Positions 1,549 to 59,322 of a stretch of DNA of 64,000 bases are shown here, piece after piece. Numbering within the stretch: position 1 is the first letter of the stretch; every line of letters begins with the position of its first letter. The notes beneath the pieces were generated by a model. It saw nothing but the letters and a program-made list of their open reading frames with translations, was not told where the DNA came from and did not search any database. Position numbers and translations under genes: made by a program. Source of the stretch: a bacterium (GTDB lineage Bacteria > ARS69); assembly GCA_025774805.1 (NCBI GenBank), contig JALGZR010000005.1:1-64000 (forward strand). Direction: 5' to 3'.

Positions 1549-2886
1549 ATGAGAGAGAGCACGGTGGGAGCGGGTGCGAAGGAGATGTCGGTCGTGAGCG
1601 TGGCGGCGGAGCTGGGGGGAGAACGGCGGCTCGCTCTCTCCGGCGGCGCGGAGCGATCCCGGGAGTCCACGATTCTGAAGATCGCGGAAGAGATCCGGGA
1701 ACGAAAGCAACGCGGTGAGCAGGTTCTCGATCTGACGATCGGTGACTTCCGTCCCGATCAGTTCCCGGTGCCCGCGACGTACTGTGAGCGGATTCGGGAG
1801 GCGCTCCGCGAGGGTCACACGAACTACCCCCCGGTCGCGGGGCTCCCCGAGATGCGGGAGGCGGTTCGCGACCACGTGCGGAAAGACCTCGGGCTCGAGT
1901 ATCCGACCGACGGCGTCCTCATCGGAGGCGGGGCCCGTCCTCTCATTTACTCCAGTTTCATGGCCTTCGTGGACCCGGGCGACCTCGTGCTCTATCCCGT
2001 ACCGTCGTGGAACAGCCATCACTACGTGAATCTCAGTGGAGCACGCGGGCTCGCTCTCCCGGTCACGGCCGCCAAGAACTTCCATCTGGATCACACCGAC
2101 CTGGCGCCGCATCTCGCGGAGGCCCGTCTCCTCTGCCTCAACTCCCCGTTGAACCCGACCGGTACCTGCATCTCCCGCGAGGCTCTCACCGGAATCTGCC
2201 GGGCGATCGTGACCGAGAACGAGCGTCGGAGTTCGGCCGGTGAGCGCCCTCTCTTCCTGATCTACGATCAGGTTTACAATCTCTTGACTTTCGGGAAGGC
2301 CGAGCACTTCACTCCGGTGCATCTCGTTCCCGAGGTGGCGCCGTACGCGATCCTCATCGACGCGGTGAGCAAGGGCTTCTGCGGCACGGGGCTTCGCGTC
2401 GGATGGGGAATCGGTCCGCCTCCGATCATCAAGAAGATGGCCTCGATGGCCGGCCACTACGGGGCCTGGTGCCCCCGGCCGCAGCAGGTCGGCACCGCGC
2501 GCTTCCTGCGCGACCGCGCCGCGATCGCCGAGCACCGGAAGTCCATGGTGGAGCGCCTCGAGGCGCGGCTCGGCCTCCTGGACCGCGGATTGGGCTCGAT
2601 GCGGATGGCAGGCATGCCGGTCGAGCACATCGAGCCGCAGGGCGCGATCTATCTCTCGGTGCGCTTCGCGCTCCACGGAAGGAACGTCAAAGGAAGGCTC
2701 ATCGAGACGAACGAGGACATCCGCGCGCTACTCCTCGAAGAGGCCGGATTCGCGGTCGTCCCCTTCGACGCCTTCGGTCACGAGGGAGAGCCGGGCTGGA
2801 TGCGCCTCTCCGTCGGCGCGGCCGCCGTGGAGGAGATCGAGGCCGGCCTCGACCGGGTCCGGGCCGTGCTCGAGCCGGCGGGCTAG
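1549..2886 (+). CDS. Aspartate-aminotransferase-like PLP enzyme (class I/II)
   Basis: 445-residue fold-type I aminotransferase. Visible landmarks: GHTNYPPVAGLPEMREAV, where class I enzymes bind substrate; GGGARPLIYSSFMAFVDPGD (cofactor phosphate region); LNSPLNPTGTCIS, the family NPTG motif; YDQVYNLL; and DAVSKGFCGTGLRVGW, containing the PLP lysine in the standard SK-x(5)-GxRxG arrangement. It is longer than the usual ~395 residues because of about 45 extra N-terminal residues, which are Ser/Gly/Ala-rich, so a later start is possible. The substrate is not predictable; the adjacent sugar acetyltransferase might suggest amino-sugar or amino-acid metabolism, but classical nucleotide-sugar aminotransferases are DegT-type. 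The TAG stop (2884–2886) lies in the CTAG of an intergenic repeat. Confidence 0.85.
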   Translation: MRESTVGAGAKEMSVVSVAAELGGERRLALSGGAERSRESTILKIAEEIRERKQRGEQVLDLTIGDFRPDQFPVPATYCERIREALREGHTNYPPVAGLPEMREAVRDHVRKDLGLEYPTDGVLIGGGARPLIYSSFMAFVDPGDLVLYPVPSWNSHHYVNLSGARGLALPVTAAKNFHLDHTDLAPHLAEARLLCLNSPLNPTGTCISREALTGICRAIVTENERRSSAGERPLFLIYDQVYNLLTFGKAEHFTPVHLVPEVAPYAILIDAVSKGFCGTGLRVGWGIGPPPIIKKMASMAGHYGAWCPRPQQVGTARFLRDRAAIAEHRKSMVERLEARLGLLDRGLGSMRMAGMPVEHIEPQGAIYLSVRFALHGRNVKGRLIETNEDIRALLLEEAGFAVVPFDAFGHEGEPGWMRLSVGAAAVEEIEAGLDRVRAVLEPAG

Positions 2887-2989
2887 CCTGCATCTCGCAC
2901 CGGCCTCTGCGGCGGCCTCTGCGGCGGCCCCTGCTGCGTCAGCGACAAGGCCGCGCCTCGCGCCGAGCCTCGTGAGACCTGCCGGCTAG
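2883..2989. repeat. CTAG repeat, inverted pair between convergent genes
   Basis: A minus-oriented arm at 2883–2907 and a plus-oriented arm at 2955–2989, separated by GCGGCGGCC-rich sequence, can fold into one long hairpin. The outer ends are both CTAG. The left one gives the stop codon of the aminotransferase on the plus strand and the right one gives the stop of the aldehyde dehydrogenase on the minus strand. It may act as a bidirectional terminator. Consensus of the family on its own strand: a 5' block GCCTCGCGACGAGCC, one variable base, and a 3' block GGTGAGAAATGCAGGCTAG. Confidence 0.8.
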
Positions 2990-4419
2990 GGAACCAGATT
3001 GAGGACGATCAGCTTCTCCCGGGACATCTCCTCGACGGCATAGCGCACGCCGCCCATGCCGTAGCCGGCGTTCTCCCGTCCCCCGAAGGGCATCCAGTCG
3101 ACGCGGAACGCGGAGTGGTCGTTGACGACGACGGCGTTCGCGTTGATCCCCCGCGCGACCCGGAAGGCCGCGTCCACGTCGGACGCGAAGACGGCCGCCT
3201 GGAACGGATTGCGGGACCGGTTCACCTCGGCGATCGCGTCCTCCGCGCGGGGGCGGCCCAGGATGGACACGACCGGGCCGAAGACCTCGTGGCTCACGAC
3301 CTTCGCGTCCGCGGGCGGATCCGCGAGAACGGTCACCTCGTGGCACTGGTGCGGCTTCGTCCCGCCCCCGAGGAGAACGCGGGCGCCGCGCGCTTCCGCC
3401 TCCCGCACCCACTCGTTCACTCGTTTCTGATCCGAGGTCGAGATGAGCGGTCCGACGTCGGTCCCGTCCTTCGTCGGATCTCCCACGGTCAGTCGGTCCG
3501 CCGCCTCGACCAGCCGCCGGACGAGCTCGTCGCGGAGGGGGGCGGCGACGTAGATCCGCTGAACCGAGATGCACACCTGTCCGGCATGATAGAAGGCGCC
3601 CTTGACCAGTGCGGGGACCGCGCGGTCGAGGTCCGCGCTCTCGTGGAGGACGACCGCGGCTTCACCCCCGTGCTCCAGGCTGAATCGCGCCCCCGGATTG
3701 AGGATGGCCTTCAGACGCCATCCCACCTCGTCGCTCCCGATGAAGGTCAGGAACTTCGTGCGCTCATCGGTGACGAGATTCTCGGCGGCGGCGCCGGGGC
3801 AGGGCGTGGCGATCACCGCCTCCTCGGGAAACCCCGACTCGCGGAAGATCTCCACCATCCGGATGGCGGAGAGCGGCGTCTGGCTCGCCGGTTTGACGAC
3901 ACACGAGTTCCCTGCGGCGAGCGCCGGCGCCACCTGATGGGCGATGAGATTCACCGGATGGTTGAAGGCGGACAGAGCGACGACGACGCCGATCGGCTCC
4001 CGCACCGTGAAGGCGATCCGATGCTCGGTCCCCTTCGCCTTGTCCATGGGAAGGGTCTCACCTCCGAAGCAGGTCGCCTCCTCGGCCGAGAGCCGTACCG
4101 TATTGACGGCCCGCGTCACCTCGATTCGCGCGTCGGTGATCGGCTTCCCGCCCTCCCGGGCGATCTGGCGGGCCAGGTCCTCCGCCTCGCCCTCCATGAT
4201 CTCCGCCGCCTTCTCCAACCGCTCCCGGCGTCGCCACCCCGGGGTCCTCGAAGTTTCACCCCAGAAGCACTGGTGGGCGGCGGCCATGGCCGCGTCGAGC
4301 GCGTCGGGTCCCGCCTGCTCCACGACCGCGAGCTCCTCGCCGGAGTACGGGGACCGCAGGGGACGCATCTCCCCGGACCCGGTCCATCCGGGGATGCGAA
4401 GTCGTCTCTCGTTCGACAT
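2986..4419 (-). CDS. NAD(P)-dependent aldehyde dehydrogenase
   Basis: 477 residues, usual ALDH size. Rossmann part: REPIGVVVALSAFNHPVNL, with the conserved Asn that stabilises the oxyanion, then VVKPASQTPLS. FIGSDEVG corresponds to the nucleotide-binding FTGS, LEHGGEA holds the general-base glutamate, and GQVCISVQRI the nucleophilic cysteine. EVFGPVVS and MPFGGRENAGYG close the fold. The wording resembles lactaldehyde or non-phosphorylating glyceraldehyde-3-phosphate dehydrogenases, but the substrate is open. I use the ATG at 4417–4419 because AGGAG lies just before it. A second in-frame ATG at 4441–4443 lies inside a CTAG-family repeat and would add eight residues. The stop is in the repeat pair downstream. 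Confidence 0.88.
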   Translation of the reverse strand: MSNERRLRIPGWTGSGEMRPLRSPYSGEELAVVEQAGPDALDAAMAAAHQCFWGETSRTPGWRRRERLEKAAEIMEGEAEDLARQIAREGGKPITDARIEVTRAVNTVRLSAEEATCFGGETLPMDKAKGTEHRIAFTVREPIGVVVALSAFNHPVNLIAHQVAPALAAGNSCVVKPASQTPLSAIRMVEIFRESGFPEEAVIATPCPGAAAENLVTDERTKFLTFIGSDEVGWRLKAILNPGARFSLEHGGEAAVVLHESADLDRAVPALVKGAFYHAGQVCISVQRIYVAAPLRDELVRRLVEAADRLTVGDPTKDGTDVGPLISTSDQKRVNEWVREAEARGARVLLGGGTKPHQCHEVTVLADPPADAKVVSHEVFGPVVSILGRPRAEDAIAEVNRSRNPFQAAVFASDVDAAFRVARGINANAVVVNDHSAFRVDWMPFGGRENAGYGMGGVRYAVEEMSREKLIVLNLVP

Positions 4420-4432
4420 GAAAGGCTCCTCC

Positions 4433-4457
4433 CTGGCCTGCATTCCTCACCAACCTC
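4433..4457 (-). repeat. CTAG-family repeat, variant end (CCAG)
   Basis: On the minus strand this reads GTTGGTGAGGAATGCAGGCC followed by AG, matching the 3' block of the family with CTAG changed to CCAG. It lies immediately upstream of the aldehyde dehydrogenase, and its ATG (4441–4443) is in frame with that gene. Confidence 0.65.
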
Positions 4458-4514
4458 TGCTGCGGCGGCGGCATCGAGGCCGGACGAGCGAAGGTGCCGC
4501 GACCCGGATCGAAA

Positions 4515-4542
4515 GGGGGAGCGATCTTCCGATCGCTCCCCC
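4515..4542 (-). terminator. Intrinsic terminator behind tRNA-Leu
   Basis: A perfect 12-bp inverted repeat (arms 4515–4526 and 4531–4542, TTCC loop) is followed on the minus strand by CTTTC. It lies only a few bases past the tRNA 3' end, as expected for the end of the tRNA transcript. Confidence 0.75.
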
Positions 4543-4548
4543 GAAGGA

Positions 4549-4633
4549 TGGTGCCCGAGGAGGGATTCGAACCCTCAAGGGTTTCCCCACACGGCCCTCA
4601 ACCGTGCGTGTTTACCAATTTCACCACCCGGGC
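4549..4633 (-). tRNA. tRNA-Leu (anticodon GAG), CCA encoded
   Basis: Read on the minus strand, the acceptor arm begins GCCCGGG and ends CTCGGGC plus A and an encoded CCA. The anticodon stem CACGG/CCGTG encloses the loop TTGAGGG, giving anticodon GAG. A long variable arm (TGGGGAAACCCTT) marks it as class II, and the T arm is GAGGGTTCGAATCCCTC. All stems pair, with one G-T pair in the acceptor. The gene lies between secG and a perfect terminator hairpin and could be co-transcribed with the gap-pgk-tpiA-secG operon. Confidence 0.95.
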
Positions 4634-4658
4634 TCGATTCTCTTCGATCCCGACCGGG

Positions 4659-7113: not shown

Positions 7114-7114
7114 G

Positions 7115-8125
<1,011 letters not shown>

Positions 8126-8259
8126 TGCGGAAATCCTCCCAGAGGCAACGACCGAAGAGCGCGACACCGCGCGGGGGCGGCTCCCGGAAGCCACGTTTGC
8201 GACGTGCGGAGACACGGGGAACGGGCCGGCGAGACTCCGGCCACCGAACAAACCGCGTC

Positions 8260-8288
8260 AGGGTAACCGGTGGGGTGAGGGGGGTCAA
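8260..8288 (-). promoter_or_regulatory. Putative promoter of the gap operon
   Basis: On the minus strand TTGACC (8283–8288) and TACCCT (8260–8265) are separated by 17 bases. It is the best -35/-10 pair in the gap between the small kinase-like gene and gap, and would give a leader of about 125 bases. Confidence 0.4.
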
Positions 8289-8347
8289 GAAGGGGCGGGA
8301 GGTTGCCCTGGGGACGGCTCGTCCTCCCCGGCGTCTCCGCTCCCGAG

Positions 8348-8617: not shown

Positions 8618-8627
8618 TCCTTCCTCC

Positions 8628-13432: not shown

Positions 13433-13593
13433 CGAGCGGACAATCCAGACCAATCTTGGCAAGAGATCGGCTGCTTTCGATCCGGACTTGAAAGCGGCGG
13501 GCCTGGGCCTCGGCGACCCCGATTCTACTACGCGGAAGGGTCGCGACCGGCCCGTCCTTCGGGCCCCGCAGCCGGAGGCCGCCTCTGCCCTCC

Positions 13594-13654
13594 TGTCTCA
13601 CCCCCCTCGGCTGCGGCGGCTCGCGACGAGCCGGGTGAGAAGCACGGGCGGGAG
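13594..13654. repeat. Degenerate CTAG-family inverted pair
   Basis: A minus-oriented arm around 13594–13616 (TGTCTCACCCCCCTCGGC) and a plus-oriented arm from 13620 (TCGCGACGAGCCGGGTGAGA) face each other. The terminal CTAG is lost in both arms. It sits between the divergent sensor and CHAT operons. Confidence 0.55.
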
Positions 13655-16621: not shown

Positions 16622-16638
16622 GATGCCGCCGACCCGCA

Positions 16639-16673
16639 GCCTCGCGACGAGCCCGGTGAGAAATGCAGGCTAG
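16639..16673 (+). repeat. CTAG repeat, near-consensus copy
   Basis: The best full copy: GCCTCGCGACGAGCC, one C, then GGTGAGAAATGCAGGCTAG. It sits between the convergent CHAT and rnc genes. The CTAG at 16670–16673 supplies the minus-strand TAG stop of rnc. Confidence 0.9.
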
Positions 16674-18595
16674 CGGCGCCGGAGTCCTCTCACCTGCCGC
16701 CGCTTGCGTCGGGCGAACGTCCCTCGGGGAGCCGACGGAGGCTTTTCGGACTTCTCACCCTTCCCCGGCGACGGGGTGGACGAGCTCGCCGACCCGGACG
16801 GCTCCTCCGCGGGCGCGTCCACCGGTGACGGCGTATCCGCACCCTGCGGAGCGGGCTTCTCCTCGGGCGGACCTTCCGGCGGGCGAGGACGCTCCGCGTC
16901 CCCCACCGGCGGCCCTTTCGGTCGAGCTTCCGGAGCCACCTCCCGAGGCCCTTCCGTGGGGCCCGCCTCCACCCACGCCGGGGGAGGCGGTTCGGCCGGA
17001 GTGGTCGACGAGGGATCACTCTCGGGAGCAGGGGAGCGGGACGCATCCGCCCGTCGGCCCTCGGCAGGACGGAACGGCACGGGCTCCGGAGTGGAGACGG
17101 GCGTCGTCCGGGAATCCCGCCGCGCGCGGCGACGACCGACACGATCCCCCTCCCGCACCGGAGGCTCCGAGGTCTCGCGCTCCCGACGGGCCGGCGGCGC
17201 CGGAGGCCTCTCTTCCGCCGCGTCCCGGTCTCGACGGGCCGGCGGTGCCGGGGCCTCGGTCGCCTCGGAGACCCCCGAGGAGGCTCCCGGCGGAGTCGCC
17301 GTGGCGGGAGACGGATCGGGTCTCGGGGCGCTTTCCGCTTCCGCGTCCCGATCCTGCCCCGGCCGGCGCCGGCGTCCCCGACGCGGCCCGCGGCGATCGG
17401 CGGGGCCGGCCTCCGTCGTCCCGGATCGGTCGTTGGACGGGGCGGGGCGCGTCGACGAGGTCGTCTCCCGCGCGCGGGCGGCCTCCTCCCGCCGCCTTCG
17501 CGCGGACCGTCGCCGTTCCCTGGCCTCGCGCTCCGCTCTCTCCCTCTCTTCGAGCTCGACCCGCCGTTGGTGCAGGATCTTCTCGCGGGAGGCGGCGATG
17601 CCGTGTTCGCCGCGGTGACGGGCCACGCGATCGGGTCGTCCCTCGTTGCCGCCCCGCTCCGTTCGGCTCGGCCCGGTCGATCGGGATGCCGGTCGGGACG
17701 GTCCTGCCGATTCCTCGGCCCGAGGCTCGCGGATCCGGCGTCGCTCGGCGGCGGCGCGGCCCGATCGGTCGGAACGGCCGGCGCGACGTCCGCCGCCCCG
17801 TTCCGGCGCGGCTCTCCCCTGTTTCCGCTCGAGGGCGGCCCGGGCGGCGTTCTGTTCCGCCTCCTTCTTGCTCTTGCCTCGACCGGTCCCCCATACGTCG
17901 CCCCGTACGACGACCTCGATCGCGAACTCCTTCTCGTGTTCCGGACCCTCCTCGCGCCGCACCCGGTAGACCGGATGGCTGAGGCGCTTCGATTGCACGA
18001 ACTCCTGAAGCAGGGACTTGAAGTTCGTGTGCTCCTCGTCCTTGAGGATCGTGTGGATGTTCGCCAGGAGGAAGCGCTGGATGAACTTGTTCGAGGCGCG
18101 GTACCCCTGGTCCAGGTAGATCGCGCCGATGACTCCTTCGAAGGAGTCCGCGAGAATGGACGAGCGATCGCGTCCTCCCATCTCGGACTCCTCGCCGGAG
18201 AGCAAAAGGTACTCGCCGAACCCCACATCGCGGGCCACGGAGGAGAGCACCTTTCGACTGACGAGGAGCGACTTCATCTTCGAGAGCGCTCCTTCGCTCC
18301 GGTCGGGAAACTTCAGGTAGAGGAACTGACTCACCGCGAGACCCAGCACGGAGTCTCCCAGAAACTCCATTCGCTCGTTGGAGTCGTTGCGGCTCAGGGA
18401 GGTGACGTGGGAATAGGAGCGATGGGTCAGCGCCTGTTCCAGAAGAGAGATGTCCGTGAACCGGATCCCGATCGACTTCTGAAACCTCTTGAGTTGACGG
18501 ATCCTGTCACCGGACGGGCCCTTGCGCGTACCGACGAAGAGCTTGCCGAGGACCGACATGCCCCGTCGGATCGCGGATGACTGGCTATTGCACAT
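16670..18595 (-). CDS. rnc: Ribonuclease III with a ~375-residue disordered tail
   Basis: Cleaves double-stranded RNA in rRNA and mRNA processing. Residues ~35–180 form the nuclease domain, with the signature [14 protein letters not shown] (Glu74, Asp81) and [16 protein letters not shown]; ~190–262 is the dsRNA-binding domain ([11 protein letters not shown] to [13 protein letters not shown]). The usual protein would end here at ~250. Instead about 375 residues follow, nearly all Arg, Pro, Ala, Glu, Ser and Gly, with runs such as [17 protein letters not shown] and repeated [10 protein letters not shown]-like segments. The open frame is maintained to a TAG inside a CTAG repeat. The start at 18593–18595 has AGGA upstream and overlaps fabF by 11 bases; an alternative ATG is at 18559. 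Confidence 0.92.
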
Positions 18596-31141: not shown

Positions 31142-31176
31142 CTAGCCCGCTGATCTCCCCAGACTCGTCGCGAGGC
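31142..31176 (-). repeat. CTAG repeat copy behind the M6 peptidase
   Basis: Minus-strand copy: GCCTCGCGACGAGTC, then a GGGGAGATCAGCGGGCTAG block. With the plus-oriented copy at 31289–31323 it makes a widely spaced inverted pair across the 320-base gap (31013–31332) between the peptidase and the DUF3467 gene. I see no gene in that gap. Confidence 0.8.
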
Positions 31177-31288
31177 TGCGGATAGTCGTGGCTGGCAAGG
31201 AGATGGGGTGCTTTGGTCCGAGGCGGGGCCGTCGCTCCGTCGCAGGGCGAAAGCGCCGCAGCGACGAAGCCGGGCGCGACTTCGCCGC

Positions 31289-31323
31289 TGCCGCAGCAGA
31301 GCATGGTGATAAATGCGGGCTAG
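31289..31323 (+). repeat. CTAG repeat copy directly before the DUF3467 gene
   Basis: The 3' block reads GGTGATAAATGCGGGCTAG. The bases after CTAG continue as GAGG, so the repeat end merges with the ribosome-binding site of the DUF3467 gene that starts at 31333. Confidence 0.75.
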
Positions 31324-34614: not shown

Positions 34615-34669
34615 CTAGCCCGCACGTTTCACCAGCCTCGCCGCGAGCCCGGTGGGAAATGCACGCCAG
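34615..34669. repeat. CTAG repeat, compact palindromic form
   Basis: A minus-oriented arm (34615–34640, starting CTAGCCCGCACG) and a plus-oriented arm (34635–34669, ending GGTGGGAAATGCACGCCAG) share one central GCCTCGCCGCGAGCC. It is the tightest version of the inverted pair and lies just upstream of rnd. Confidence 0.8.
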
Positions 34670-35140: not shown

Positions 35141-36124
35141 TCAGACGGAGGTCGGCCCCGGCGGCGAATCCGGCGGCTCGCCGGGAGGTGAGAGGCGAGG
35201 GTGACGGGCGAGCGCGCGATCCCGAACCCCCCGCAGCCGGCGCAGCGCCCGGAGACCCGCGAGCGCGCACACTTCGGAGGCGACCCAGGCGCCCAGGTGA
35301 GCGGCCTCGGAGCCGGTCATCCCCAGCACCCGGCCCGCGCAGACTCCGGAGAGGAAGGAGTCCCCGCATCCCGTCGGGTCGACGGCGTCGCGGCAGGGAA
35401 CCGCCGGGATCTCCTCGCTGCGCACCGTCCCCCCGCCCCGGTAGTAGCGGACCGCTCCCTGTTCCCCCCGCGTGACGAGGACCTCCCGCGCTCCGGCCGT
35501 GAGAAGCCTCGCGGCCGCGGCGGAGACGTCGCCGGGCCGTCCGCCGAAGTGCTCGACCTCTTCCTCGTTTCCGCGGACCACGTCGAAGAGCGCCGTCCAC
35601 TCCGGCGCGTCCGGAACGCCGCGCGGCCGCCGCGGGGACCCGAGCGTCCGCGCGAGCGCCTGGATGTCGAGCAGGAACAGCGCCGACGAGCTCCGTCGGA
35701 GCGCGGTCAGGGTCGCCCGTTCGAGGTCCCGCCCGGAGATCATGTTCACCAGGACCGCGCGACCCTCGGCGGCTCCCGACAAATCCGCGGGCGTGAGCGG
35801 GGCGACGCGCATCTCGACCTCCTCCCGTCGGTCTCCGGGGCCGGAGTAGTCGAGAACGGAGAGATTCGTTCCCCCCGGGTCCGGGATCAGGGCGTCGGTC
35901 TCGACGTCGGGGAAGGCGGAGATCAGCTCGACGGCCTCGCTCCGGTGCGCGGATCCCAGCCTTCCGTGCGGCCGGACCCGGATGCCCGTCCCCTCGAGCA
36001 CGGCGGCGAGCGACAGGACATTGTAGAGGATCCCGCCCAGGCTCTCGTGCCGGGCTCCGTCGGGAGCGATGATGACGTCGTGGTTCACCGTGCCGACGAT
36101 CGAGACGAAGTCCCTAGTCCGCAT
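35141..36124 (-). CDS. PfkB-family sugar/nucleoside kinase
   Basis: 327 residues. FVSIVGTVNHDVI opens the ribokinase fold, LGGILYNVLSLA resembles the substrate-binding GG region, VRGNEEEVEHFGG and LVTRGEQGAVRYY follow, and the catalytic base and anion hole are in DAVDPTGCGDSFLSGV. The substrate is not evident. The start ATG (36122–36124) lies inside a CTAG repeat, and its GGTGAG may serve as the ribosome-binding site; no other in-frame start keeps the first strand. It overlaps the lpxL stop by 11 bases. The C-terminus is Pro-rich. Confidence 0.85.
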   Translation of the reverse strand: MRTRDFVSIVGTVNHDVIIAPDGARHESLGGILYNVLSLAAVLEGTGIRVRPHGRLGSAHRSEAVELISAFPDVETDALIPDPGGTNLSVLDYSGPGDRREEVEMRVAPLTPADLSGAAEGRAVLVNMISGRDLERATLTALRRSSSALFLLDIQALARTLGSPRRPRGVPDAPEWTALFDVVRGNEEEVEHFGGRPGDVSAAAARLLTAGAREVLVTRGEQGAVRYYRGGGTVRSEEIPAVPCRDAVDPTGCGDSFLSGVCAGRVLGMTGSEAAHLGAWVASEVCALAGLRALRRLRGVRDRALARHPRLSPPGEPPDSPPGPTSV

Positions 36125-36148
36125 TTCTCACCCGGCTCGTCGCGAGGC
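36114..36148 (-). repeat. CTAG repeat forming the lpxL/pfkB junction
   Basis: Full minus-strand copy with GCCTCGCGACGAGCC, one G, and GGTGAGAAATGCGGACTAG. Its reading frame encodes the last ten residues of lpxL (LATSRVRNAD plus TAG). The internal ATG at 36122–36124 is the start of pfkB, so one element gives both stop and start. Confidence 0.9.
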
Positions 36149-37106
36149 CGCCGCGCCCGCCCCGGATCGGTTCCTCCCCGCGCGGGGCGGAGGGGGTCGC
36201 CCCGCCGTCGGGCGGCCGGGTCTTCCATCGACGGTGAGCCCAGAAGTAGTTCGTCGGCCAGCGGAGGACGAGCGACTCGAGGTAGCGATTGAAACGGACG
36301 GCGCCGTCGCGCCGGTTCCGCACCTCGTCGAGACTCGGATCGGGCCTCCAGACCTCGTGCGGAACGAGGGTGTAGGTGTCTCCCTCGTCCACGAGCGCGC
36401 CGAACACGAGAGGAGCCCCGGTTCGCATCGCGAGGGACACGATCCCCCCGTGGGTGGACGCCGGCGTCCCGAGGAAGTCGATGAACACCCCCTTGCCCCG
36501 GGCGTCCTGATCCATGAGCGTGACGACGCAGCCGCCGCCTTCGAGGTGTCGCACGACCCCTCGCAGATCCCGCCGGGGCGAGAGAGGCTCGATTCCGGCC
36601 GCCCGCCGGGCCCGCATCACCCGTTCGTTCACGCGGGGATTCGCCATGTCGGCGGCCAGCGCCGCTATGGAGACCCCGAGCCGGCGGAGCCCCTGGATCG
36701 CCAGCTCCCAGTTGCCGAAGTGCCCGGACACGACCAGCGAGCCTCCGTCCTTCGTGAGCGAGTGCTTCAGCTCCTCCATCCCCGAACGGGAGAGAACGCC
36801 CCAGAGCTCTTCGTCCCCGAGGCGGCCTCCCCGAAGGAGGTCGACGAACGTGCGGGTCATCACGGCGTAGCTCTCACGGGCGATCGATTCCGCCTCCGGG
36901 CGCCCGCCCTCCGGCTGCAATCTCTCCAAAACGTTCCGAACCGCGACCTCACGGCGTACCCGGGCGATGTCGAACGCGAACCGGCCGGTGCCCGTCGCGA
37001 ATCGCATGGCCGATCGTCGCGAACCGGCTCGAACCGCGGCCTCGAGGCCGCGGAAGCCGACGAGCTCGAGAACGTGGCGGGCGCGCCGGCCCGGCCTAGC
37101 CTGCAT
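36114..37106 (-). CDS. lpxL: Lysophospholipid/lipid A late acyltransferase (LpxL/HtrB family)
   Basis: 330 residues. Acyltransferase motif SGHFGNWELA (His-x4-Glu), LMDQDARGKGVFIDFLGTPAST, APLVFGALVDEGD, and the typical SLVLRWPTNYFWAHRRWKTRP at the end of the fold. It adds a secondary acyl chain to lipid A at the inner membrane, which supports a diderm host. The start ATG (37104–37106) lies in a short CTAG repeat shared with the dprA stop. The last ten residues and the stop come from another copy. About 25 Gly/Pro/Arg-rich residues after the fold look non-essential. Confidence 0.92.
   Translation of the reverse strand: MQARPGRRARHVLELVGFRGLEAAVRAGSRRSAMRFATGTGRFAFDIARVRREVAVRNVLERLQPEGGRPEAESIARESYAVMTRTFVDLLRGGRLGDEELWGVLSRSGMEELKHSLTKDGGSLVVSGHFGNWELAIQGLRRLGVSIAALAADMANPRVNERVMRARRAAGIEPLSPRRDLRGVVRHLEGGGCVVTLMDQDARGKGVFIDFLGTPASTHGGIVSLAMRTGAPLVFGALVDEGDTYTLVPHEVWRPDPSLDEVRNRRDGAVRFNRYLESLVLRWPTNYFWAHRRWKTRPPDGGATPSAPRGEEPIRGGRGGLATSRVRNAD
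37096..37106 (-). repeat. CTAG repeat remnant forming the dprA/lpxL junction
   Basis: Only the 3' end ATGCAGGCTAG is kept. The ATG starts lpxL and the TAG stops dprA, an 11-base overlap identical in layout to the lpxL/pfkB junction. Confidence 0.7.
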
Positions 37107-38135
37107 GACTCGCCTCTCTCGTGTCGACGAGACCGAGCAGCTCCAGACGGGCCAGGCGATCGCGCGCGTCGGGAGTGGAGACGCCGAGCGCGGCGGCGAG
37201 CTCGTCCGGGGTCCGCGCCCCGGAGCGGTGAGCCTCGAGGGCGCGCACCTCGTCGGGCTCGAGCCCGGGACCGCCGCGGATTCCGTTCAGGTCCTCGAGG
37301 AGGTCCTCGGCGTCCCGGATCGGGCGCGCCCCCTCCCGGAGAAGGGCGAGGGGTCCCGCCGACCGCGCCGAGCCGGGCCATCCGGGAACGACGAAGATCT
37401 CCCGCCCGAGATCGAGCCCGTGCCGAACGGTCACGAGAGCACCGCCGCGGATCCGGGACTCGACGACGACGATCGCATCTCCCAGGGCGGCGAGAATCCG
37501 ATTCCGACGCGGGAAGTGGCCCGAGCGCGGCTCGGCCCCCGGCACGAACTCGGAGACGACGGCGCCCTCCTCCCCGATCCGGTCCTGAAGATCCCGGTTC
37601 TCGGGAGGGTAGGCCACATCGGGGCCGCACCCCAGAACCGCCACCGTGTCGCCGTCCGCCTCGAGGGCTCCGCGGTGGGCGGCCGTGTCGATGCCGCGGG
37701 CGAGACCGGAGATCGTGGCCCACCCCTCTTCGGCCAGCCGCTCGCCCAGGTGACGGGCCAGCCTCGCCCCCCCGGGCGAACACTCCCGGGTGCCGACCAC
37801 GGCGACCGCACGTTCCCGCAGGGTCTCGGGGCGGCCGCGCAAGAAGAGCACCTCGGGGGGATCGGAGAGGTCCTCGACGCGGTCGGGCCAATCCGCTTCG
37901 CCGCGGAAGAGAGGCCGGACGCGACAGGCGTCGCACGCGCTCTGCACCTCCTTCCCCCGGCGCTCGGCGTTCGCGAACCCCGGGCGCAGCCGCTCGGGCA
38001 CGGCGCGGTCTCCCCGGGACGCGGCCTGCACGGCGCGCGACCAGCCCCCGCAGCGGTCCCGGACCGCGCGGGCGGTCTTGGGTCCGATGCCGCGCGTCCC
38101 GACCAGTCCGAGCCGAATGCGGCGATCGCGGTCCA

Positions 38136-38136
<1 letters not shown>
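37096..38136 (-). CDS. dprA: DNA-processing protein DprA
   Basis: 346 residues from the ATG at 38134–38136, with GGAGG upstream. An N-terminal helical (SAM-like) part with GIGPKTARAV is followed by the Rossmann domain: VAVVGTRECSPGGARLARHLGERLAEEG, ISGLARGIDTAAHRGAL, VLGCGPDVAYPPENRDL, FPRRNRILAALGD, and a C-terminal winged-helix region (PDELAAALGVSTPDARDRLARLELLGL). It loads RecA on incoming single-stranded DNA during transformation. Type IV pilus genes in the same window fit natural competence, though ComEA/ComEC are not seen. Confidence 0.94.
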
Positions 38137-39895
<1,759 letters not shown>

Positions 39896-40012: not shown

Positions 40013-40040
40013 CTAACCTGCACCTCTCACCAGGCTCGGC
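40013..40040 (-). repeat. CTAG-family repeat, variant end (TTAG)
   Basis: Minus-strand 3' part reads GCCGAGCCTGGTGAGAGG followed by TGCAGGTTAG. It sits between the divergent obg and HAD genes, in the 186-base gap that holds no other visible feature. Confidence 0.65.
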
Positions 40041-43106: not shown

Positions 43107-43616
43107 ATGAGAAGGACCTCGCTCGCCGCTCTCGTGATCCTGCTGGCCGTGCCTTCCGCGCGAGCCGGTGACGAGACTGCCGGCAACCGATCGATTCACA
43201 TCGTACTCGGGTCCCGTCTCTCCCTTCCCGTGATCGAACTGGCGGCCTGGGTCCCGGAGACGGGTCGACCGCAGCAGGATCATCCTGAAGTGGGAAGCCT
43301 CGATGCACTTCATCGGATCCTGTTGCCGGGAGAGCCCACCGACCCGCAACTCACCTTCCCGGTCTCCGATCGCGAGCTCGGGGTTGGCGAGGGCGTCTCC
43401 GCAATCCTCGCCGGAACGACGGTGCACGCGGCTCCGTCGGGTGGGGGTGCCGAGGCGGGTGCGGCGAATCGGATCGACAGCCTCGACGAGAGCCCGGAAG
43501 GGGGCGAGCGGTCGCCTCGGGGGATCGGTTCTTCCCTGGAGACCCCCTGGGACGACTGGGAGAATCGTGACTCCACGTACGACGGATGGGACTACCGGGA
43601 CGGCTACGACCGTTGA
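43107..43616 (+). CDS. Small secreted protein of unknown function, sigma-54 controlled
   Basis: 169 residues. MRRTSLAALVILLAVPSARAGD is a clear signal peptide cleaved near residue 20. The mature part has a short beta-like stretch (IHIVLGSRLSLPVIELAAWVP), then a Gly/Ser/Asp-rich region ending with aromatic-acidic repeats (TPWDDWENRDSTYDGWDYRDGYDR). No cysteine, lipobox or known domain. A strong AAGGAGGG precedes the ATG. The sigma-54 promoter and the convergent sigma-54 activator next door suggest regulated export, perhaps with the pilus or another surface structure. I do not recognise it. Confidence 0.75.
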   Translation: MRRTSLAALVILLAVPSARAGDETAGNRSIHIVLGSRLSLPVIELAAWVPETGRPQQDHPEVGSLDALHRILLPGEPTDPQLTFPVSDRELGVGEGVSAILAGTTVHAAPSGGGAEAGAANRIDSLDESPEGGERSPRGIGSSLETPWDDWENRDSTYDGWDYRDGYDR

Positions 43617-43700
43617 GCTTTGACCGGAGTCTCATCTGAGGGCGGTGGCGCCGCGACGACGAGATCGGTCGCGGCGCGCCGCCGCAGCGGCAGGGCAGGC

Positions 43701-43729
43701 GGCAGGGCAGGGTGAGATACGCCGGCTAA
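43701..43729 (+). repeat. CTAG-family repeat, variant end (CTAA)
   Basis: GGCAGGGCAGGGTGAGATAC followed by GCCGGCTA. The CTA supplies the minus-strand TAG stop of the sigma-54 activator gene. GC-rich GCCGCC sequence precedes it, as in the 2883–2989 pair. Confidence 0.65.
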
Positions 43730-45276
43730 ATGCCGAACCGCTTGATCTTCGAGTTCAGGGTCGTGCGAGGGATGCCCATGAGTCGAGCCGCCTCTCGCTT
43801 GTTCCCTTCGGTCAACTGGAGAACGGAGCGAATGTAGTCCCTTTCCATGCTCGCGTAGGACGGCACCCCCCGGCCGTCCGCTCCGAGGACGGAATCGAGG
43901 TCGGCCCCTCGGCCCCGGCCGGGGGGCGCCGGTCCGTCCGCCTCCGAGGTGGATCCGGAGGCGATTTCCGGCCCATCGGGAATGTGCTCGGGACGCAGCT
44001 CGGGACCTCCTCGGGAACGGACGATGGCCCCGGCGATCAGACTCTCCAACTCGCGGACGTTGCCCCGAAGATCCCTCGTGGACAGCACCTCGACGAAGCC
44101 GGGTGTCATCCGCAGCTCGGAGCTCACGGTGCTCCGATATCCCTCGAGAACGTGCTCGGCGATCGCGGGGATTTCCTCCCTCCGCTCCCGCAGCGGGTGG
44201 ATCTTCACCGTGTACATCTGAAGGCGATAGAAAAGATCGGCGCGGAATCGCTCCGCTTCGACTTCCCGGACGAGATCGCGATTCGTCGCGCTGATGACCC
44301 GGGCCGTAGCCGGGATCATCCGGGATCCCCCCACCCTGCGGAAGCCGCGCTCCTCCAGCACGCGCAGGAGCATGGCCTGGGTGTCGAGCGGCATGTCCCC
44401 GATCTCGTCGAGGAAGATCGTCCCGTCGCCCGACCTCTCGAACGCTCCCCGAACCGTCGAGTCGGCCCCCGTGAAGGCTCCCTTCTCGTGGCCGAAGAGC
44501 GCGCTCGCCATGAGGTCCTGGGGGATGGCCGCGCAGCTGATCGCCTCGAAGCTCTCCGCCCGGCGGTGGCTGAGCTCGTGCACGGCGTGGGCGACGAGCT
44601 CCTTGCCGGTGCCCGTCTCCCCGAGGATCAGCACCGGTAGATCGAGCTTCGCGACGGCGACGACCTCGGCGAAGAGGGAGGCGGTGCGATCGCCCTCCCC
44701 GCGAATCGTAGTCAGGATGGGATGCTCTTTCCGGAGCGAAAGGATCCGCGCCGCGGGATCCCGGTCGCGCTCCGTAGCCCCGACATCGGCGCCGAACGAG
44801 GTCCCGAGCGCGAGGACCGACTGCCCGACGATCTCCCGGACCACCGGAACGTCTCTCCCGGCGAAGGGCTCCCCCAGCAGCTTGGGTCCCAGGGCGAAGA
44901 AGCCCCGCACCCGACCCTCGAGACGGACGGGACAGACCAGCTCGATCTCGAGACCACGGGCGAGGCGCGCGACCCTCGGGCCGAGACCGGCGATCTCCTC
45001 TCCGCAGAGCGGATCGACGGACTCGCCGAGCGTCTTCTCCATCCGGCGGGTCAGGGGCAGAGAGACCTCGGGAACCTCGGAGAGTCCCTGCGCGGCGCGG
45101 AGAGTGAGGCGATCGTCGGAATCGCGCTCGAAGAACACCGCGAAGCTCGCTCCGCTGGCGCCCATGAGCGAGAGCAGCGCCGTGGTCAGGATCGGCTCCC
45201 GCCCGCGGAGCCCGAGGAAGCCGCGCGCCGTGTCGTACAGCAGGGAGAGCTCCAGCAGGTCTTTTCTGGGATCCAC
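43726..45276 (-). CDS. Sigma-54-dependent activator with N-terminal GAF domain
   Basis: 516 residues. GAF-like sensor at about 20–165 (ILTTALLSLMGASGASFAVFFER), AAA+ domain at about 190–425 with Walker A LGETGTGKELVA, the sigma-54 contact loop GAFTGAD, Walker B GTIFLDEIGDM and RADLFYRL, then a Fis-type helix-turn-helix (GNKREAARLMGIPRTTLNSKIKRF). There is no receiver domain, so it should answer to a ligand rather than a kinase. A perfect palindrome lies 26–51 bases before its start. Its natural target may be the sigma-54 promoter at 43009. Confidence 0.93.
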   Translation of the reverse strand: MDPRKDLLELSLLYDTARGFLGLRGREPILTTALLSLMGASGASFAVFFERDSDDRLTLRAAQGLSEVPEVSLPLTRRMEKTLGESVDPLCGEEIAGLGPRVARLARGLEIELVCPVRLEGRVRGFFALGPKLLGEPFAGRDVPVVREIVGQSVLALGTSFGADVGATERDRDPAARILSLRKEHPILTTIRGEGDRTASLFAEVVAVAKLDLPVLILGETGTGKELVAHAVHELSHRRAESFEAISCAAIPQDLMASALFGHEKGAFTGADSTVRGAFERSGDGTIFLDEIGDMPLDTQAMLLRVLEERGFRRVGGSRMIPATARVISATNRDLVREVEAERFRADLFYRLQMYTVKIHPLRERREEIPAIAEHVLEGYRSTVSSELRMTPGFVEVLSTRDLRGNVRELESLIAGAIVRSRGGPELRPEHIPDGPEIASGSTSEADGPAPPGRGRGADLDSVLGADGRGVPSYASMERDYIRSVLQLTEGNKREAARLMGIPRTTLNSKIKRFGI

Positions 45277-48660: not shown

Positions 48661-48663
48661 GGA

Positions 48664-55387: not shown

Positions 55388-56451
55388 ACCGGACTCCTCC
55401 CCTGATTCCGTTTCTCGGTTGCGGGCCACGGCGGATTCCACGCGACCGACCCGGTGAGCGGGTCGTAGTCGAGGGCGATGCCCATTGGGCGCAACGGCGG
55501 AAACGGCATGATGCCCCGCTCCACCAACGACTCGAGGCTCGGCGGAAGCACACCGTCGGTTCGGTGGGCGAGGCGCACGTGCTGCTGAAACACGTCGCGC
55601 TCCTGGGCCATGCGACGATCCAGATGCGTGGTGGCCCAGACCCGCATCCCTCCGGGATCGAACAAGAAGAGCCCGCCGTAGGGCTCCGGGGGCAGGTGGC
55701 TTACGCAGCCCTTGTCGAGGAGCTCCGCCCAGTCGTGCGGAAGTCGATCGTGCTCCGCGCGGAAGCGCTCCACGCCGGCGGTCAAGAGTTCCTCGGCGTC
55801 CTCCATGTCGAGGTTTTTCAGGTTCCTCTCGGCCACCGAGCGCATGACGTCGTTCTCCGCCTCGTCGTAGATCGCCCGCCAGACCTCCCTCGAGGAGCTG
55901 CGGTCTCCGAGACGCGCGAACGTGAGCCCCGCTAGGCGACGCGTCACCGCGGGCGCCCCGGGAAGCTCGGACGAGTGCCGGTACGCCTGCGCGGCACCGG
56001 TGTAATCCCTCAGGACGGTCTGCAGGATGAATCCGCGATCGAAGGGGTATTCCCAGGCGCCCGGATCGTCCCGCTCGGCGCGGGTGAGCAGCGCGAGCGC
56101 GGCCTCCGGCTCGCCGGCGTCCTGGGCCAGCACGAGCGCGCCGAAACGGGTCGCCCCCTTGAACGTCGGATCGAGGGTGTAGATCAGGCGGAACAGCCGA
56201 TCGGCCTGGTCGTAGTTGCGGGTCGTGAGCCTCTGCTCTCCGTAGTACTGGATCGCCAGGATCCAGACGGCGTCCGCCATCAGGTTTCGGTGGCCCAAGC
56301 TCGCCGCCTTCAACACCTCTCCCTCGGGAAGGTAGGCGAGCTGATCCGGATTCCCGGGCGCGGCCCGCGCGGCCCCTGACCGCTCCCCGGTCCAGTGCGC
56401 CGCACCCAGGAGAAGCAGAGCGGTCAGGAGCTTCAGTCCTTCCCTCATCAC
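55384..56451 (-). CDS. TPR-like exported protein in the pilG position
   Basis: 355 residues. The N-terminus has a hydrophobic export segment (LLTALLLLGAAHWTG). Helical repeats follow: ADAVWILAIQYYGEQRL, YDQADRLFRLIYTLDP, EAALALLTRAERDDPGAWEYPFDRG, YTGAAQAYRHSSELPG. The C-terminal half has AELLDKGCVSHLPPEPYGGLFLFD, a phrase seen in pilus-linked TPR proteins. Its place between the ABC permease and pilD corresponds to the pilG/H/I block of M. xanthus; equivalence to PilG is inferred from position only. Confidence 0.75.
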   Translation of the reverse strand: MMREGLKLLTALLLLGAAHWTGERSGAARAAPGNPDQLAYLPEGEVLKAASLGHRNLMADAVWILAIQYYGEQRLTTRNYDQADRLFRLIYTLDPTFKGATRFGALVLAQDAGEPEAALALLTRAERDDPGAWEYPFDRGFILQTVLRDYTGAAQAYRHSSELPGAPAVTRRLAGLTFARLGDRSSSREVWRAIYDEAENDVMRSVAERNLKNLDMEDAEELLTAGVERFRAEHDRLPHDWAELLDKGCVSHLPPEPYGGLFLFDPGGMRVWATTHLDRRMAQERDVFQQHVRLAHRTDGVLPPSLESLVERGIMPFPPLRPMGIALDYDPLTGSVAWNPPWPATEKRNQGRSPV

Positions 56452-57215
56452 TCGAAATCCCGGCGGTGGAACACGACGATCGTCACGACAAGCACGGCCC
56501 CCGCATAGAGAATCGAGTACGCCGTGCAGCCGAGGATCTGGTCGGGAGGAACGGGGACTCCGGAGACGACGTTGTTGCGGACGTCGAAATGGTGGAGTGC
56601 CGGCAGCAGGACATAGGCGAACTGCGAGGCGGCGGCCACCGCACCGTTTCCCGACTGTTCGGCGAGCAGCCGAAGATCGTCGGCGAGGTGTCCGGCCACG
56701 AAGACGAGCGAGGTGAAGACCGCGGAGAGAAGGGGTGAGGCCACCGCGGAGAACAGAATCGCGATCGCCGTGACGACGAACGCCTCCACGGCGACGAGCC
56801 AGAGCGCTTCGAGGAGGTGCCAGCGGAAACCCCCGCCGAATAGCGTGGCCACCGCGAGATAGACGGCGGAGAGGACGAAGAAGCTCACCAGCACCGACGC
56901 ATACATCCCGAAGAACTTCCCGAGGATGAAGTGCGCCCGGTCCACCGGCTGGGAGAGAATCGTCTCGATCGTGCGTCGATCGATCTCCCGGTGGACCATT
57001 CCCGTCCCCACGAGGACGATCAGCAGAAGCGTGAAGGCGCTCACGGCCGAGAGCCCCAGGTCCCGGATGACGCGATCCTGCTCACCGAGCGTGAGGGGCG
57101 CGAGGACGACGGATCCGGTGACCAGGATCCCGCCGAAGACGAGCACCGTGGTCAGGAGTCGATCGCGCACCGCCTCCCGGAACGTGTTGCGCGCGAGGAT
57201 CCAGGTGTTTCTCAC
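56448..57215 (-). CDS. pilI: ABC-2 type permease of the pilus cluster
   Basis: 255 residues from a GTG that overlaps the ATPase stop. Six hydrophobic segments (LLTTVLVFGGILVTGSVVLAP through YAGAVLVVTIVVF) and the cytoplasmic ETILSQPVDRAHFILGKFFGMY motif of ABC-2 permeases. With the upstream ATPase it makes a membrane transporter matching PilHI, needed for pilus function in M. xanthus. The symbol rests on synteny. Confidence 0.78.
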   Translation of the reverse strand: MRNTWILARNTFREAVRDRLLTTVLVFGGILVTGSVVLAPLTLGEQDRVIRDLGLSAVSAFTLLLIVLVGTGMVHREIDRRTIETILSQPVDRAHFILGKFFGMYASVLVSFFVLSAVYLAVATLFGGGFRWHLLEALWLVAVEAFVVTAIAILFSAVASPLLSAVFTSLVFVAGHLADDLRLLAEQSGNGAVAAASQFAYVLLPALHHFDVRNNVVSGVPVPPDQILGCTAYSILYAGAVLVVTIVVFHRRDFE

Positions 57216-58225
57216 CTCTCGACCTCCCCGTGGGCGGTTTCGTGAACAACGCCGACGGTCCGCGACGCGACCGGAGCTTCCGGCGACCTCACCGGGGGCG
57301 AGGCCACCGGCTCCGGTTGCGTGCGGGTCGTCGCGCGCGCCGGGTCGATCTGGCGAAGGAAGAAGTCCTCGAGAGACGTGCGACAGTGATGGTAGCCGTG
57401 GAGCCGTCCTCCCTCCGCGAGGATTCGATGAACGACATCCTGACCCGACGCCGCGTCGGAGGTGGTTCCGATCCACCCCCGGGCTCCCCGGCGTAGGGTG
57501 TCGAGGCGCCGCTCGAGCGTCTGCGGCACCGGATCCTCCGGCATCTCGAACGAGATCTCGATCGACCGCGGTCCCCCGGAGAGGATCTCCTCGAGAGATC
57601 CGCAGCGGACGAGACGACCTCGAGCGAGGATTCCCACGCGGTCGGCCGTCGACTCGATGTCGGCCAGGACGTGCGACGACAGGAACACCGTCCGGCCCTC
57701 CCGCTTCAGCGAGAGGAGGAGATCTCGCACCTCGCGGCGACCGAGCGGATCGAGCCCATTCATCGGCTCGTCGAGAACGACGAGCCGCGGCCCGTGAAGG
57801 ACCGCCGCCGCGATCCCGATCCGCTGGAGCATCCCCCTCGAGTAGGTGCGGAGCGCGCGCCCGCGGGCGTCTTCGGCGAGACCGACCGCGTCGAGCGTTT
57901 GTTCGATCTGCCGGGGCAGGGCGCCGCCGTTGATCCCGTGCAATCGACCCGTGAACTCCAGCAGCTCGCGGCCGGTGAGATAGCGGTAGAAGTTCGGGGT
58001 GTCGGGAACGTAGCCGACCTCGCGCCGGGCCTCCCGACTTCCGAACCGTCGACCGAGCAGCGTTCCGCGCCCGGTCGTGGGGCGAATCAGGCCCAGGAGG
58101 ATCTTGATCGTCGTCGTCTTGCCCGCCCCGTTCGGACCGAGAAAGCCGAAGATCTCCCCCTCCTCGACGGCCAGATCGAGGTCGGTCAGGGGGCACCGAG
58201 CCGGCCGGAGCCACCCCGGAGCCAC
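57212..58225 (-). CDS. pilH: ABC transporter ATP-binding protein of the pilus cluster
   Basis: 337 residues from a GTG at 58223–58225. Walker A FLGPNGAGKTTTIKILLGL, Q-loop region VPDTPNFYRYLTG, signature YSRGMLQRIGIAAA, Walker B LVVLDEPMNGLDPLG and the H-loop SSHVLADI. The N-terminus is odd: only about 15 residues precede TDLDLAVEEGEIFG, without a recognisable A-loop aromatic, and the frame is closed by a stop nine codons further up. There is no ribosome-binding site. A sequence or frame error, or a diverged start, are both possible. Confidence 0.85.
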   Translation of the reverse strand: MAPGWLRPARCPLTDLDLAVEEGEIFGFLGPNGAGKTTTIKILLGLIRPTTGRGTLLGRRFGSREARREVGYVPDTPNFYRYLTGRELLEFTGRLHGINGGALPRQIEQTLDAVGLAEDARGRALRTYSRGMLQRIGIAAAVLHGPRLVVLDEPMNGLDPLGRREVRDLLLSLKREGRTVFLSSHVLADIESTADRVGILARGRLVRCGSLEEILSGGPRSIEISFEMPEDPVPQTLERRLDTLRRGARGWIGTTSDAASGQDVVHRILAEGGRLHGYHHCRTSLEDFFLRQIDPARATTRTQPEPVASPPVRSPEAPVASRTVGVVHETAHGEVER

Positions 58226-58350
58226 CGTTGCACGTACACGGACCCGTTTCCGTCATCGGCCTGGCGGACTGGCGAGTTGAGACCGGCGAGGATGGACCCG
58301 AGGGGGACCGGGGCCGGCGGAGCGAGATCCCGGCCAGGTGCCGGGGCCCC

Positions 58351-58380
58351 GGCGCCGGCGGGCGCCGGCGGGCGCCGGAG
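58351..58380 (+). repeat. Tandem repeat of GGCGCCGGCG
   Basis: Three 10-base units, the last with one change, in the 253-base gap (58226–58478) between the ABC ATPase gene and pilA. Each unit is itself nearly palindromic. It may help end the pilA transcript or be a slippage-prone site. Confidence 0.75.
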
Positions 58381-58426
58381 AGGAGCGGAGCCGGCCGGGA
58401 GAGAATGATCCGGGCCGGGAAAGCGA

Positions 58427-58452
58427 GGGGCGGGACCTCGCGGCCCCGCCCC
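58427..58452 (-). terminator. Terminator behind pilA
   Basis: GGGGCGGG (minus strand) and CCCGCCCC form an 8-bp G+C stem (arms 58427–58434 and 58445–58452), followed by TCGCTTTCCC, 27 bases after the pilA stop. The U tract is weak, so some read-through into the ABC genes is likely. Confidence 0.5.
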
Positions 58453-58478
58453 GTCGGCTCGTACCCTCTTCAGAGTGC

Positions 58479-58943
58479 CTACTGGTTCGTGAGCACCAGG
58501 GAGAGGGCCGCCCCCTGATCGTCCTCACCGGTGATGTCGTAGGCGTCCCACGCACCGCCGGCGATCGTCTGAATGACGTTCAGGCTGATTCCGCCCGCTG
58601 GGTCGGTCGTCGGGGCAGTCCCCAGGGCGTTCGACCAGTCGAGGTTGGTCGGAGCGGCCGTGAACGGGTTCAACGGCATCGCCCCGCCCGGAAGCAGCTG
58701 CGCAAAGGTGAGAGCGCCGTCGGCCGTGGTGGCGGCGGCGTTGTTCGGATACTGGCCGTTGTTCCGGGTCGCGAAGTCCTCGACCGTGACCTGGGCCGTG
58801 TGCATGGACGACTTGACCTGGGCGACCTTTGCCCGGTTCGTCATGCCCATGAAGTTCGGGATGGCAATCGCGGCCAGGATGCCGATGATGACGACCACGA
58901 TCATGAGCTCGATGAGGGTGAAACCCTTGCTGCTCCGAAGCAT
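58479..58943 (-). CDS. pilA: Type IV major pilin PilA
   Basis: 154 residues from the ATG at 58941–58943, with AGGAGGAAG upstream. A short leader MLRSSKG is cut before Phe; FTLIELMIVVVIIGILAAIAIPNF is the class IVa N-terminal helix with Glu5. The head domain has MTNRAKVAQVKSSMHTAQVTVEDFATRNNGQYP and GGISLNVI. There is no cysteine pair, so no classical D-loop disulphide. It has its own sigma-54 promoter upstream; the PilS/PilR pair is encoded next to it. Confidence 0.95.
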   Translation of the reverse strand: MLRSSKGFTLIELMIVVVIIGILAAIAIPNFMGMTNRAKVAQVKSSMHTAQVTVEDFATRNNGQYPNNAAATTADGALTFAQLLPGGAMPLNPFTAAPTNLDWSNALGTAPTTDPAGGISLNVIQTIAGGAWDAYDITGEDDQGAALSLVLTNQ

Positions 58944-59010
58944 TTCCGATCTTCCTCCTGAGAGCTTCGTCCCCGAGGGGACTTCGGTTCGCGCCTGCGA
59001 CCGGACAAAA

Positions 59011-59026
59011 CGCATGGGCCGTGCCA
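59011..59026 (-). promoter_or_regulatory. Sigma-54 promoter of pilA
   Basis: On the minus strand TGGCACGGCCCATGCG has a perfect TGGCACG -24 block and GC exactly ten bases after GG. Start of transcription near 58999 leaves a 55-base leader. The 375-base gap (58944–59318) also has a weaker GGGCACGCCACAAGCC at 59215–59230, and room for PilR sites. Confidence 0.85.
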
Positions 59027-59292
59027 ACAGGTCCGAGCGTCCGCACTCGGCTCACAACTCGTTGGAGATCAGGGGGTTCGCACGATGTCGATCCGGTCGC
59101 AACCGTCTCGGACCGCCCTTCGCCCCGTCCCGGAATGCAAGGACGGATCGCACTCTGCACGGTCCGAATCGGAATCCCCACGCGAGGGACGGCCCCCACG
59201 TCTCGTGCATCGGAGGCTTGTGGCGTGCCCTTTAGAGCCGCGACAAAATTGTGGGAGGCACTTGCCGATGGTGGAGGACACGAGCGTGGAGT

Positions 59293-59322
59293 CACGCGAG
59301 CCTGGTGAGAAATGGAGGCTAG
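59293..59322 (+). repeat. CTAG repeat between pilR and the pilA promoter
   Basis: GCGAGCCTGGTGAGAAATG then GAGGCTAG. Its CTAG gives the TAG stop of pilR on the minus strand, and the element separates the pilSR transcript from the pilA control region. Confidence 0.8.

Follow-up and report, generated by a model that had tools for sequence, protein, structure and literature searches.

Introduction

RUP of Streptococcus pneumoniae and the Correia/NEMIS elements are intergenic miniature inverted-repeat transposable elements (MITEs) of ~100 bp, which are present in about a hundred or more copies and have been assigned to an insertion sequence (IS) via matching ends (PMC2229807). IS1380 transposases form the outgroup of piggyBac, whose terminal inverted repeats (TIRs) begin with CCC and which duplicates a 4-bp TTAA, rarely TTAG or CTAA (PMC10813416). 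Here, we analyze a dispersed repeat in the first 64,000 nucleotides of contig JALGZR010000005.1 (assembly GCA_025774805.1, bacterial lineage ARS69), referred to as the window. An earlier note on this DNA described a 35-bp unit ending in CTAG at gene borders and likened it to the repetitive extragenic palindromes and bacterial interspersed mosaic elements (REP/BIME) that are moved by REP-associated tyrosine transposases (RAYT). We propose instead, with a probability of roughly 0.85, that the repeat is a high-copy non-autonomous DNA transposon (MITE) family with IS1380-family ends that inserts at CTAG and whose IS1380 helper, acting in trans, is now gone from the assembly.

Anatomy and Copy Number of the Element

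When the inverted blocks are read in pairs, the 35-bp unit turns out to be one terminus of a larger element with TIRs. The matches at 31142 and 31289, for example, are not two repeats: they are the two ends of one 182-bp copy (31142-31323). Counted from tetranucleotide to tetranucleotide, the full-length element measures 181-182 bp. Its 182-bp consensus runs from CTAG through CCYGCATTTCTCACC and AGGCTCGTCGCGAGGC to a central palindrome, GGCGGGGCYGTAGCCCCGTCG, and on through GCCGCTGCCGCAGCAGAG and GGTGAGAWATGCRGG to the second CTAG. The inverted ends are 15 bp long (CCYGCATTTCTCACC) and the interior is an imperfect hairpin, in which the central palindrome lies between a left (TCGTCGCGAGG) and a right (GCCGCAGCAGA) subterminal block. 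The two ends can be told apart, as GCCTCGCGACGAGCC is confined to the TCGTCGCGAGG-side end and the opposite end carries CTCTGCTGCGGCAGC. Most of the sites noted earlier in the window carry the shared block GGTGAGAAATGCAGGCTAG or its reverse complement.

The source assembly is fragmented, and all pair and location statistics refer to 1.54 of its 5.1 Mb, in stretches partly picked for carrying matches. This sample holds 96 inverted pairs with discrete lengths of 182, 181, 55, 71, and 83 bp. The 181-182-bp form accounts for 35 of the 96, followed by classes of 55 bp (12 copies), 69-72 bp, and 82-84 bp. The short forms retain both ends and are missing the middle; those of 55, 71, and 83 bp appear to have arisen through internal deletion and to have multiplied afterwards. 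Sized between 55 and 182 bp, the element carries no transposase gene. Across the whole 5.1-Mb assembly, the block GGTGAGAAATGCRGGCTAG is found at 466 sites (≤3 of 19 mismatches) and the same pattern reversed at 1, which bears out the expectation of further copies elsewhere in the genome. Extrapolation from 30 elements detected by nhmmer in 395 kb of large contigs gives a very rough total of ~390 elements. No curated Rfam model matches the window element or its counterparts at five related loci, and the full-length MITE has no BLAST match among plasmids or phages.

Target Duplications and Family Assignment

CTAG is found on both sides of 34 of the 96 pairs in the source genome. In other genomes, the outer tetranucleotides follow the pattern YTAR, and the best-preserved copies are identical on both sides even where the tetranucleotide is non-palindromic. 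In G043 and G039, the flanks are TTAG/TTAG in L102 and L104 and CTAA/CTAA in L109 and L063; G043 also has TTAA/TTAA, present in L111 and L112. The identical non-palindromic flanks favor a 4-bp duplication. Two elements adjoin at L032:1975-2171 with one CTAG in common, as expected if the duplicated target of one had received the other.

The ends point to IS1380. Plasmid IS1380 elements of P. putida, Stutzerimonas, and two Bradyrhizobium start with CTAG and CCCGCATTTCTCACA at both ends, except for one left end (CCCGCATTTTTCACA), and CTAG is present on both sides in 4/4 cases. The MITE end CCCGCATTTCTCACC equals CCCGCATTTCTCACA in 14/15 bases. Because the P. putida and Stutzerimonas copies share a protein accession, this match represents three distinct IS elements at four sites; the transposases are 62% identical to one another. 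More distant IS1380s hold the pattern (ISMaq4 CTAG/CTAG, ISPa33 CTAA/CTAA, and a Rhizobium element CTAG/CTAG), a member of the family from Nostoc has a similar end but lacks a YTAR duplication, and some of the further IS1380s show no recognizable match. Based on the matching ends and the CTAG/CTAA duplications, we therefore file the elements as IS1380-type MITEs. An IS1380 transposase supplied in trans, and since lost from the assembly, would move the element by its ends, and insertion at CTAG would duplicate the tetranucleotide. A viral contig also contains a 264-bp MITE-like pair with CCCGCATTTCTCACA ends (L203:2071-2334).

Several points weigh against this assignment. An intact IS1380 was found neither in the source genome nor in the other MITE-bearing genomes searched, and the search returned no IS1380 with the exact ...CACC ends. 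The one IS1380-like piece in the source assembly is a distant C-terminal PF13701 fragment, which lacks these ends and shares only 25% identity with the P. putida protein. In several pairs, the two flanks disagree in an outer base (e.g., TTAG/CTAG, CTAG/CTAA). No close relative carries the element, so that there is no empty site for comparison, and movement in trans and loss of the transposase are steps that we infer. A missing autonomous partner is usual for old MITEs, for which having such a partner is not strictly a defining trait, and the assembly is in fragments.

Alternatively, an IS1634-family transposase might move the MITE, since IS1634 elements likewise start with YTAR and CCC. Elements of this family from G052, Rhizobium, Bradyrhizobium, Segatella, and others show CTAG, CTAA, or TTAA duplications and ends such as CCCGTCTTTCGCAACT, CCCATCTTTCACG, and CCCACATTGCAGCAG, and G052 contains both such an element and MITEs. 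Their ends and those of the MITE have the YTAR|CCC...TTT..C pattern in common. Yet they are identical at only ~10/15 positions, compared to 14/15 for IS1380, no IS1634 relative was found in the source genome, and the published duplication of the family is 5-6 bp (PMC2266710). We consider this reading improbable; the plasmid IS1380 elements with their 14/15 identical ends displaced it. The IS1634-family elements L128 (G052:C129), L133, L134, L141, L192, L197, and L201 have 4-bp YTAR flanks, as against the 5-6 bp published for the family, and ends of the form CCC...TTT..C, a signature common to IS1380 and reminiscent of piggyBac.

Location at Gene Ends and Stop Codons

We placed 246 ends (≤2 of 15 mismatches; control count 2) against genes called with a simple home-made caller, according to which 85% of the sampled sequence is coding. 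Only 5/246 ends are found ≥30 bp deep in such a gene, and the copies are overwhelmingly extragenic. The earlier observation that no copy sits in the middle of a gene holds in this sense, with the qualification that the copy at 36114, and perhaps that at 37096, is within the last codons of a gene, to which it supplies the stop. The neighboring gene faces the end with its 3′ side in 144 cases and with its 5′ side in 92. In 73 of the 144 3′-facing cases, the gene and the flanking tetranucleotide end on the same base, and the TAG of CTAG thus serves as stop codon. In six paired elements, 2883-2989 among them, the tetranucleotides on the two sides each contain the stop of a gene. Among elements detected by nhmmer, 40/133 are located between convergent genes, regions which make up 9% of the non-element intergenic sequence. 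The orientation of the element relative to genes is random (18 sense, 21 antisense).

Window proteins that end at elements look complete by Pfam. The profile is reached up to position 460/461 in an aldehyde dehydrogenase and 359/361 in an aminotransferase, and the last position of HTH_8 is reached 2 and 16 residues short of the protein end. Insertion at existing stops is therefore likelier than truncation. CTAG itself is rare, as the earlier note states that it usually is in bacterial DNA: the sample contains 437 occurrences versus 4586 expected by composition, a tenfold depletion. Outside recognized element ends, 110 CTAGs are at stop codons, 126 are intergenic, and 54 are within genes. Hence, a CTAG-targeting transposon meets mainly stops and spacers, and no special recognition of stop codons is needed. 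From this CTAG census, we infer that the choice of target, together with selection against disrupted genes, accounts for the extragenic pattern. Insertions inside genes would be selected against, and copies would accumulate at the 3′ ends of genes, in many cases right on the stop, which the duplication would preserve. For convergent genes whose stops overlap in a single CTAG, an insertion would leave both genes intact.

Relatives in Other Genomes and Conservation of the Interior

Four genomes of the same family are essentially without the repeat, with one 56-bp pair in G004. The repeat recurs in scattered genomes, namely G039 and G043 of one phylum and metagenome-assembled genomes (MAGs) titled Deltaproteobacteria, Actinomycetota, Nitrospirales, Nitrospira, and Gammaproteobacteria. 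MAG titles can be wrong and misbinning is possible; the nearly identical copies in the Actinomycetota and Deltaproteobacteria MAGs suggest it. The exact end was found in only 2 of 398 sampled genomes of the phylum containing G051. Copies of the relatives are mostly 184-185 bp long; G051 and G052 are exceptions, with interiors that differ or are enlarged by tandem units. The relatives in G051 (L081-L090) reach 223-704 bp through tandem internal units such as GGCAACCGCTCCTGCGTTGCTCTAGCTC. In G052 (L091-L099), the same ends enclose an unrelated interior of 137-358 bp, as if one pair of ends had captured different interiors. Two IMG/VR contigs from one sample (L079, L080) have an end block of ~120 bp in common, which finishes with GGTGAGAAATGCGGGCTAG and is present at both contig ends in L080; this block either reflects how a repeat was assembled or is an inserted relative.

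When 21 full-length copies representing six groups are aligned, the ends, TCGTNGCGAGG, GGCG...CGTYG, and GCCGYAGYAGA prove to be kept. RNAalifold yields 45 pairs, 22 of them with two-sided changes. Paired cells amount to 94.6%, compared to 84.3% in shuffles and 34-49% when slid, part of which is expected from the palindromic plan. Of the two strands, the one with TCGTCGCGAGG at its left end has the more stable fold in 57/57 full-length copies, by 20-28 kcal/mol on average. In symmetric self-alignment, G.T oppositions outnumber A.C oppositions 269:66 in copies of the source genome and 66:31 elsewhere, the excess being small in G043, G039, and G051. Copies within one genome are not independent; by group, the sign of the strand bias is the same in 6/6, a count weakened by homology between groups. 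The private mutations of copies in the source genome show no strand bias (21 G.T, 24 A.C), and individual insertions therefore drift. In the simplest reading, any constraint acts on the propagating lineage and not on the use that the host makes of inserted copies. Two-sided changes could also arise through template-switch correction inside palindromes, which would not obviously yield the strand bias. The structure may thus matter for propagation rather than host function, which is suggestive only. Going further, we tentatively raise the possibility, which we hold to be rather unlikely, that the MITE is an old and widely traveled non-autonomous element with an interior under selection, in which a single-stranded form (RNA or single-stranded DNA) of the stabler strand helps propagation and inserted copies drift neutrally. 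This idea draws on the ~184-bp core whose subterminal and central hairpins recur in genomes labeled as different phyla, on pairing kept by two-sided changes, and on the one strand that is stabler in every full-length copy.

Strong hairpins that are concentrated at 3′ ends and between convergent genes (40/133 elements vs. 9% of intergenic bases) could also be kept by the host as functional 3′-end signals, either bidirectional terminators or mRNA-stabilizing hairpins. Against such a role, private mutations break pairs without strand preference, the elements have no preferred orientation toward genes, and many copies are broken or solitary ends. The CTAG distribution accounts for the location, and we regard this explanation as very improbable.

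Spread by a RAYT (Y1) transposase would fit the extragenic, palindromic repeats in hundreds of copies, and the earlier note was right in seeing a dispersed hairpin repeat of mobile type. The assignment to RAYT is nevertheless hardly credible, because TIRs and short target duplications are traits of DDE transposons and not of REPs. The present repeats have true inverted ends with 4-bp duplications that match IS1380 and lack the GTAG head plus single hairpin listed for REPs (PMC2817692). The RAYT gene flanked by the repeat that the earlier note suggested looking for was not found in this genome: there is no Y1 transposase and no PF01797 match, in a search that was positive in 5/14 control genomes. 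An IS630/Tc1-type MITE with TA duplicated inside CTAG is just as implausible. In its favor, all targets contain TA, and the outer bases of several pairs (TTAG/CTAG, CTAG/CTAA) disagree, which is the result expected of a TA duplication. Against it, the TTAG/TTAG, CTAA/CTAA, and TTAA/TTAA pairs require a 4-bp duplication, the ends match IS1380, and DDE_3 (PF13358) is absent from the source genome. Transposases of the IS630, IS701, and DDE_Tnp_1 (IS4/IS5) types were likewise sought in this genome and none was found.

Copies in the Window

The sites noted earlier are real, with small corrections to their boundaries. The inverted pair at 2883-2989 is a 107-bp copy, whose CTAGs at 2883-2886 and 2986-2989 form the TAG stops of the convergent genes 1549-2886(+) and 2986-4443(-). 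A solitary end on the minus strand (4433-4474), consisting of CTGG and CCTGCATTCCTCACC with 1 mismatch, overlaps the first codons of gene 2986-4443(-); a tRNA gene is located just past it at 4552-4633 (-). The pair given as 13594-13654 is a degenerate 69-bp element at 13584-13652 with 3 mismatches in 15 at each end. At 16628-16673 (-), a solitary end has a perfect 15-bp TIR and its CTAG (16670-16673) contains the stop of an open reading frame with an RNase III domain, 16670-18595(-). The full-length 182-bp element at 31142-31323 (+) is intergenic with CTAG on both sides, and the fused palindrome at 34615-34669 is a 55-bp short form, in which two ends are fused across one subterminal hairpin.

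Further solitary ends follow. The end at 36114-36150 (+) falls within the final codons of a lipid A acyltransferase-like gene, 36114-37106(-), the stop of which is the TAG of the element. A weak, degenerate end with 3 mismatches in 15 (37096-37114) is situated at the 3′ end of a DprA-like gene, 37096-38175(-), and its TAG is the stop of that gene. At 36114, and perhaps also at 37096, the reading frame extends into the element and is closed by its TAG. The end at 40013-40031, CTAA followed by CCTGCACCTCTCACC, is intergenic. The right half of an element is present at 43616-43729 (+), where the outer CTAA contains the stop of a sigma-54 activator gene, 43726-45276(-). Finally, the CTAG at 59319-59322 of the solitary end 59293-59322 contains the stop of an NtrC-like response regulator gene, 59319-60734(-). 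Of ten element-free CTAGs in the window, six are gene stops (21943, 45533, 46815, 47413, 48091, and 62492), and these are still unoccupied targets.

Comparison With Known Systems

Our literature searches found neither the terminal sequence nor any MITE bearing such termini, and those directed at MITEs on stop codons or with IS1634 or IS1380 ends yielded no account of this element; the IS1380-type family is apparently undescribed so far. Two features are notable: the accumulation on stop codons and the structured core common to distant genomes. The first amounts to a safe-haven strategy, in which a rare target that is largely a stop codon plus one base allows a transposon to reach hundreds of copies in a compact genome while hardly any gene is disrupted. 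The second, if upheld, would represent a structured non-coding mobile element conserved across distant genomes with a strand-asymmetric fold, and would allow direct tests of whether the interior of a MITE is under selection. With regard to annotation, the elements duplicate or supply stop codons and thus mark gene 3′ ends.

The closest relatives by ends are the IS1380 ISs (the P. putida WP_034018616 element, the Bradyrhizobium CB82 and 62B elements, ISMaq4, and ISPa33), with ends CCCGCATTTCTCACA or CCCGGATTTCTCATGA and, like the MITE, a 4-bp CTAG/CTAA duplication. They are 1.6 kb long and encode a transposase, whereas the MITE is geneless and its interior unrelated. The piggyBac superfamily is eukaryotic and resembles the MITE in ends and target only. 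REP/BIME sequences have in common with it that they are extragenic palindromes in hundreds of copies, but they lack its TIR and duplication structure. RUP differs from the present MITE in its affiliation with IS630, its TA target, its ends, and its hosts.

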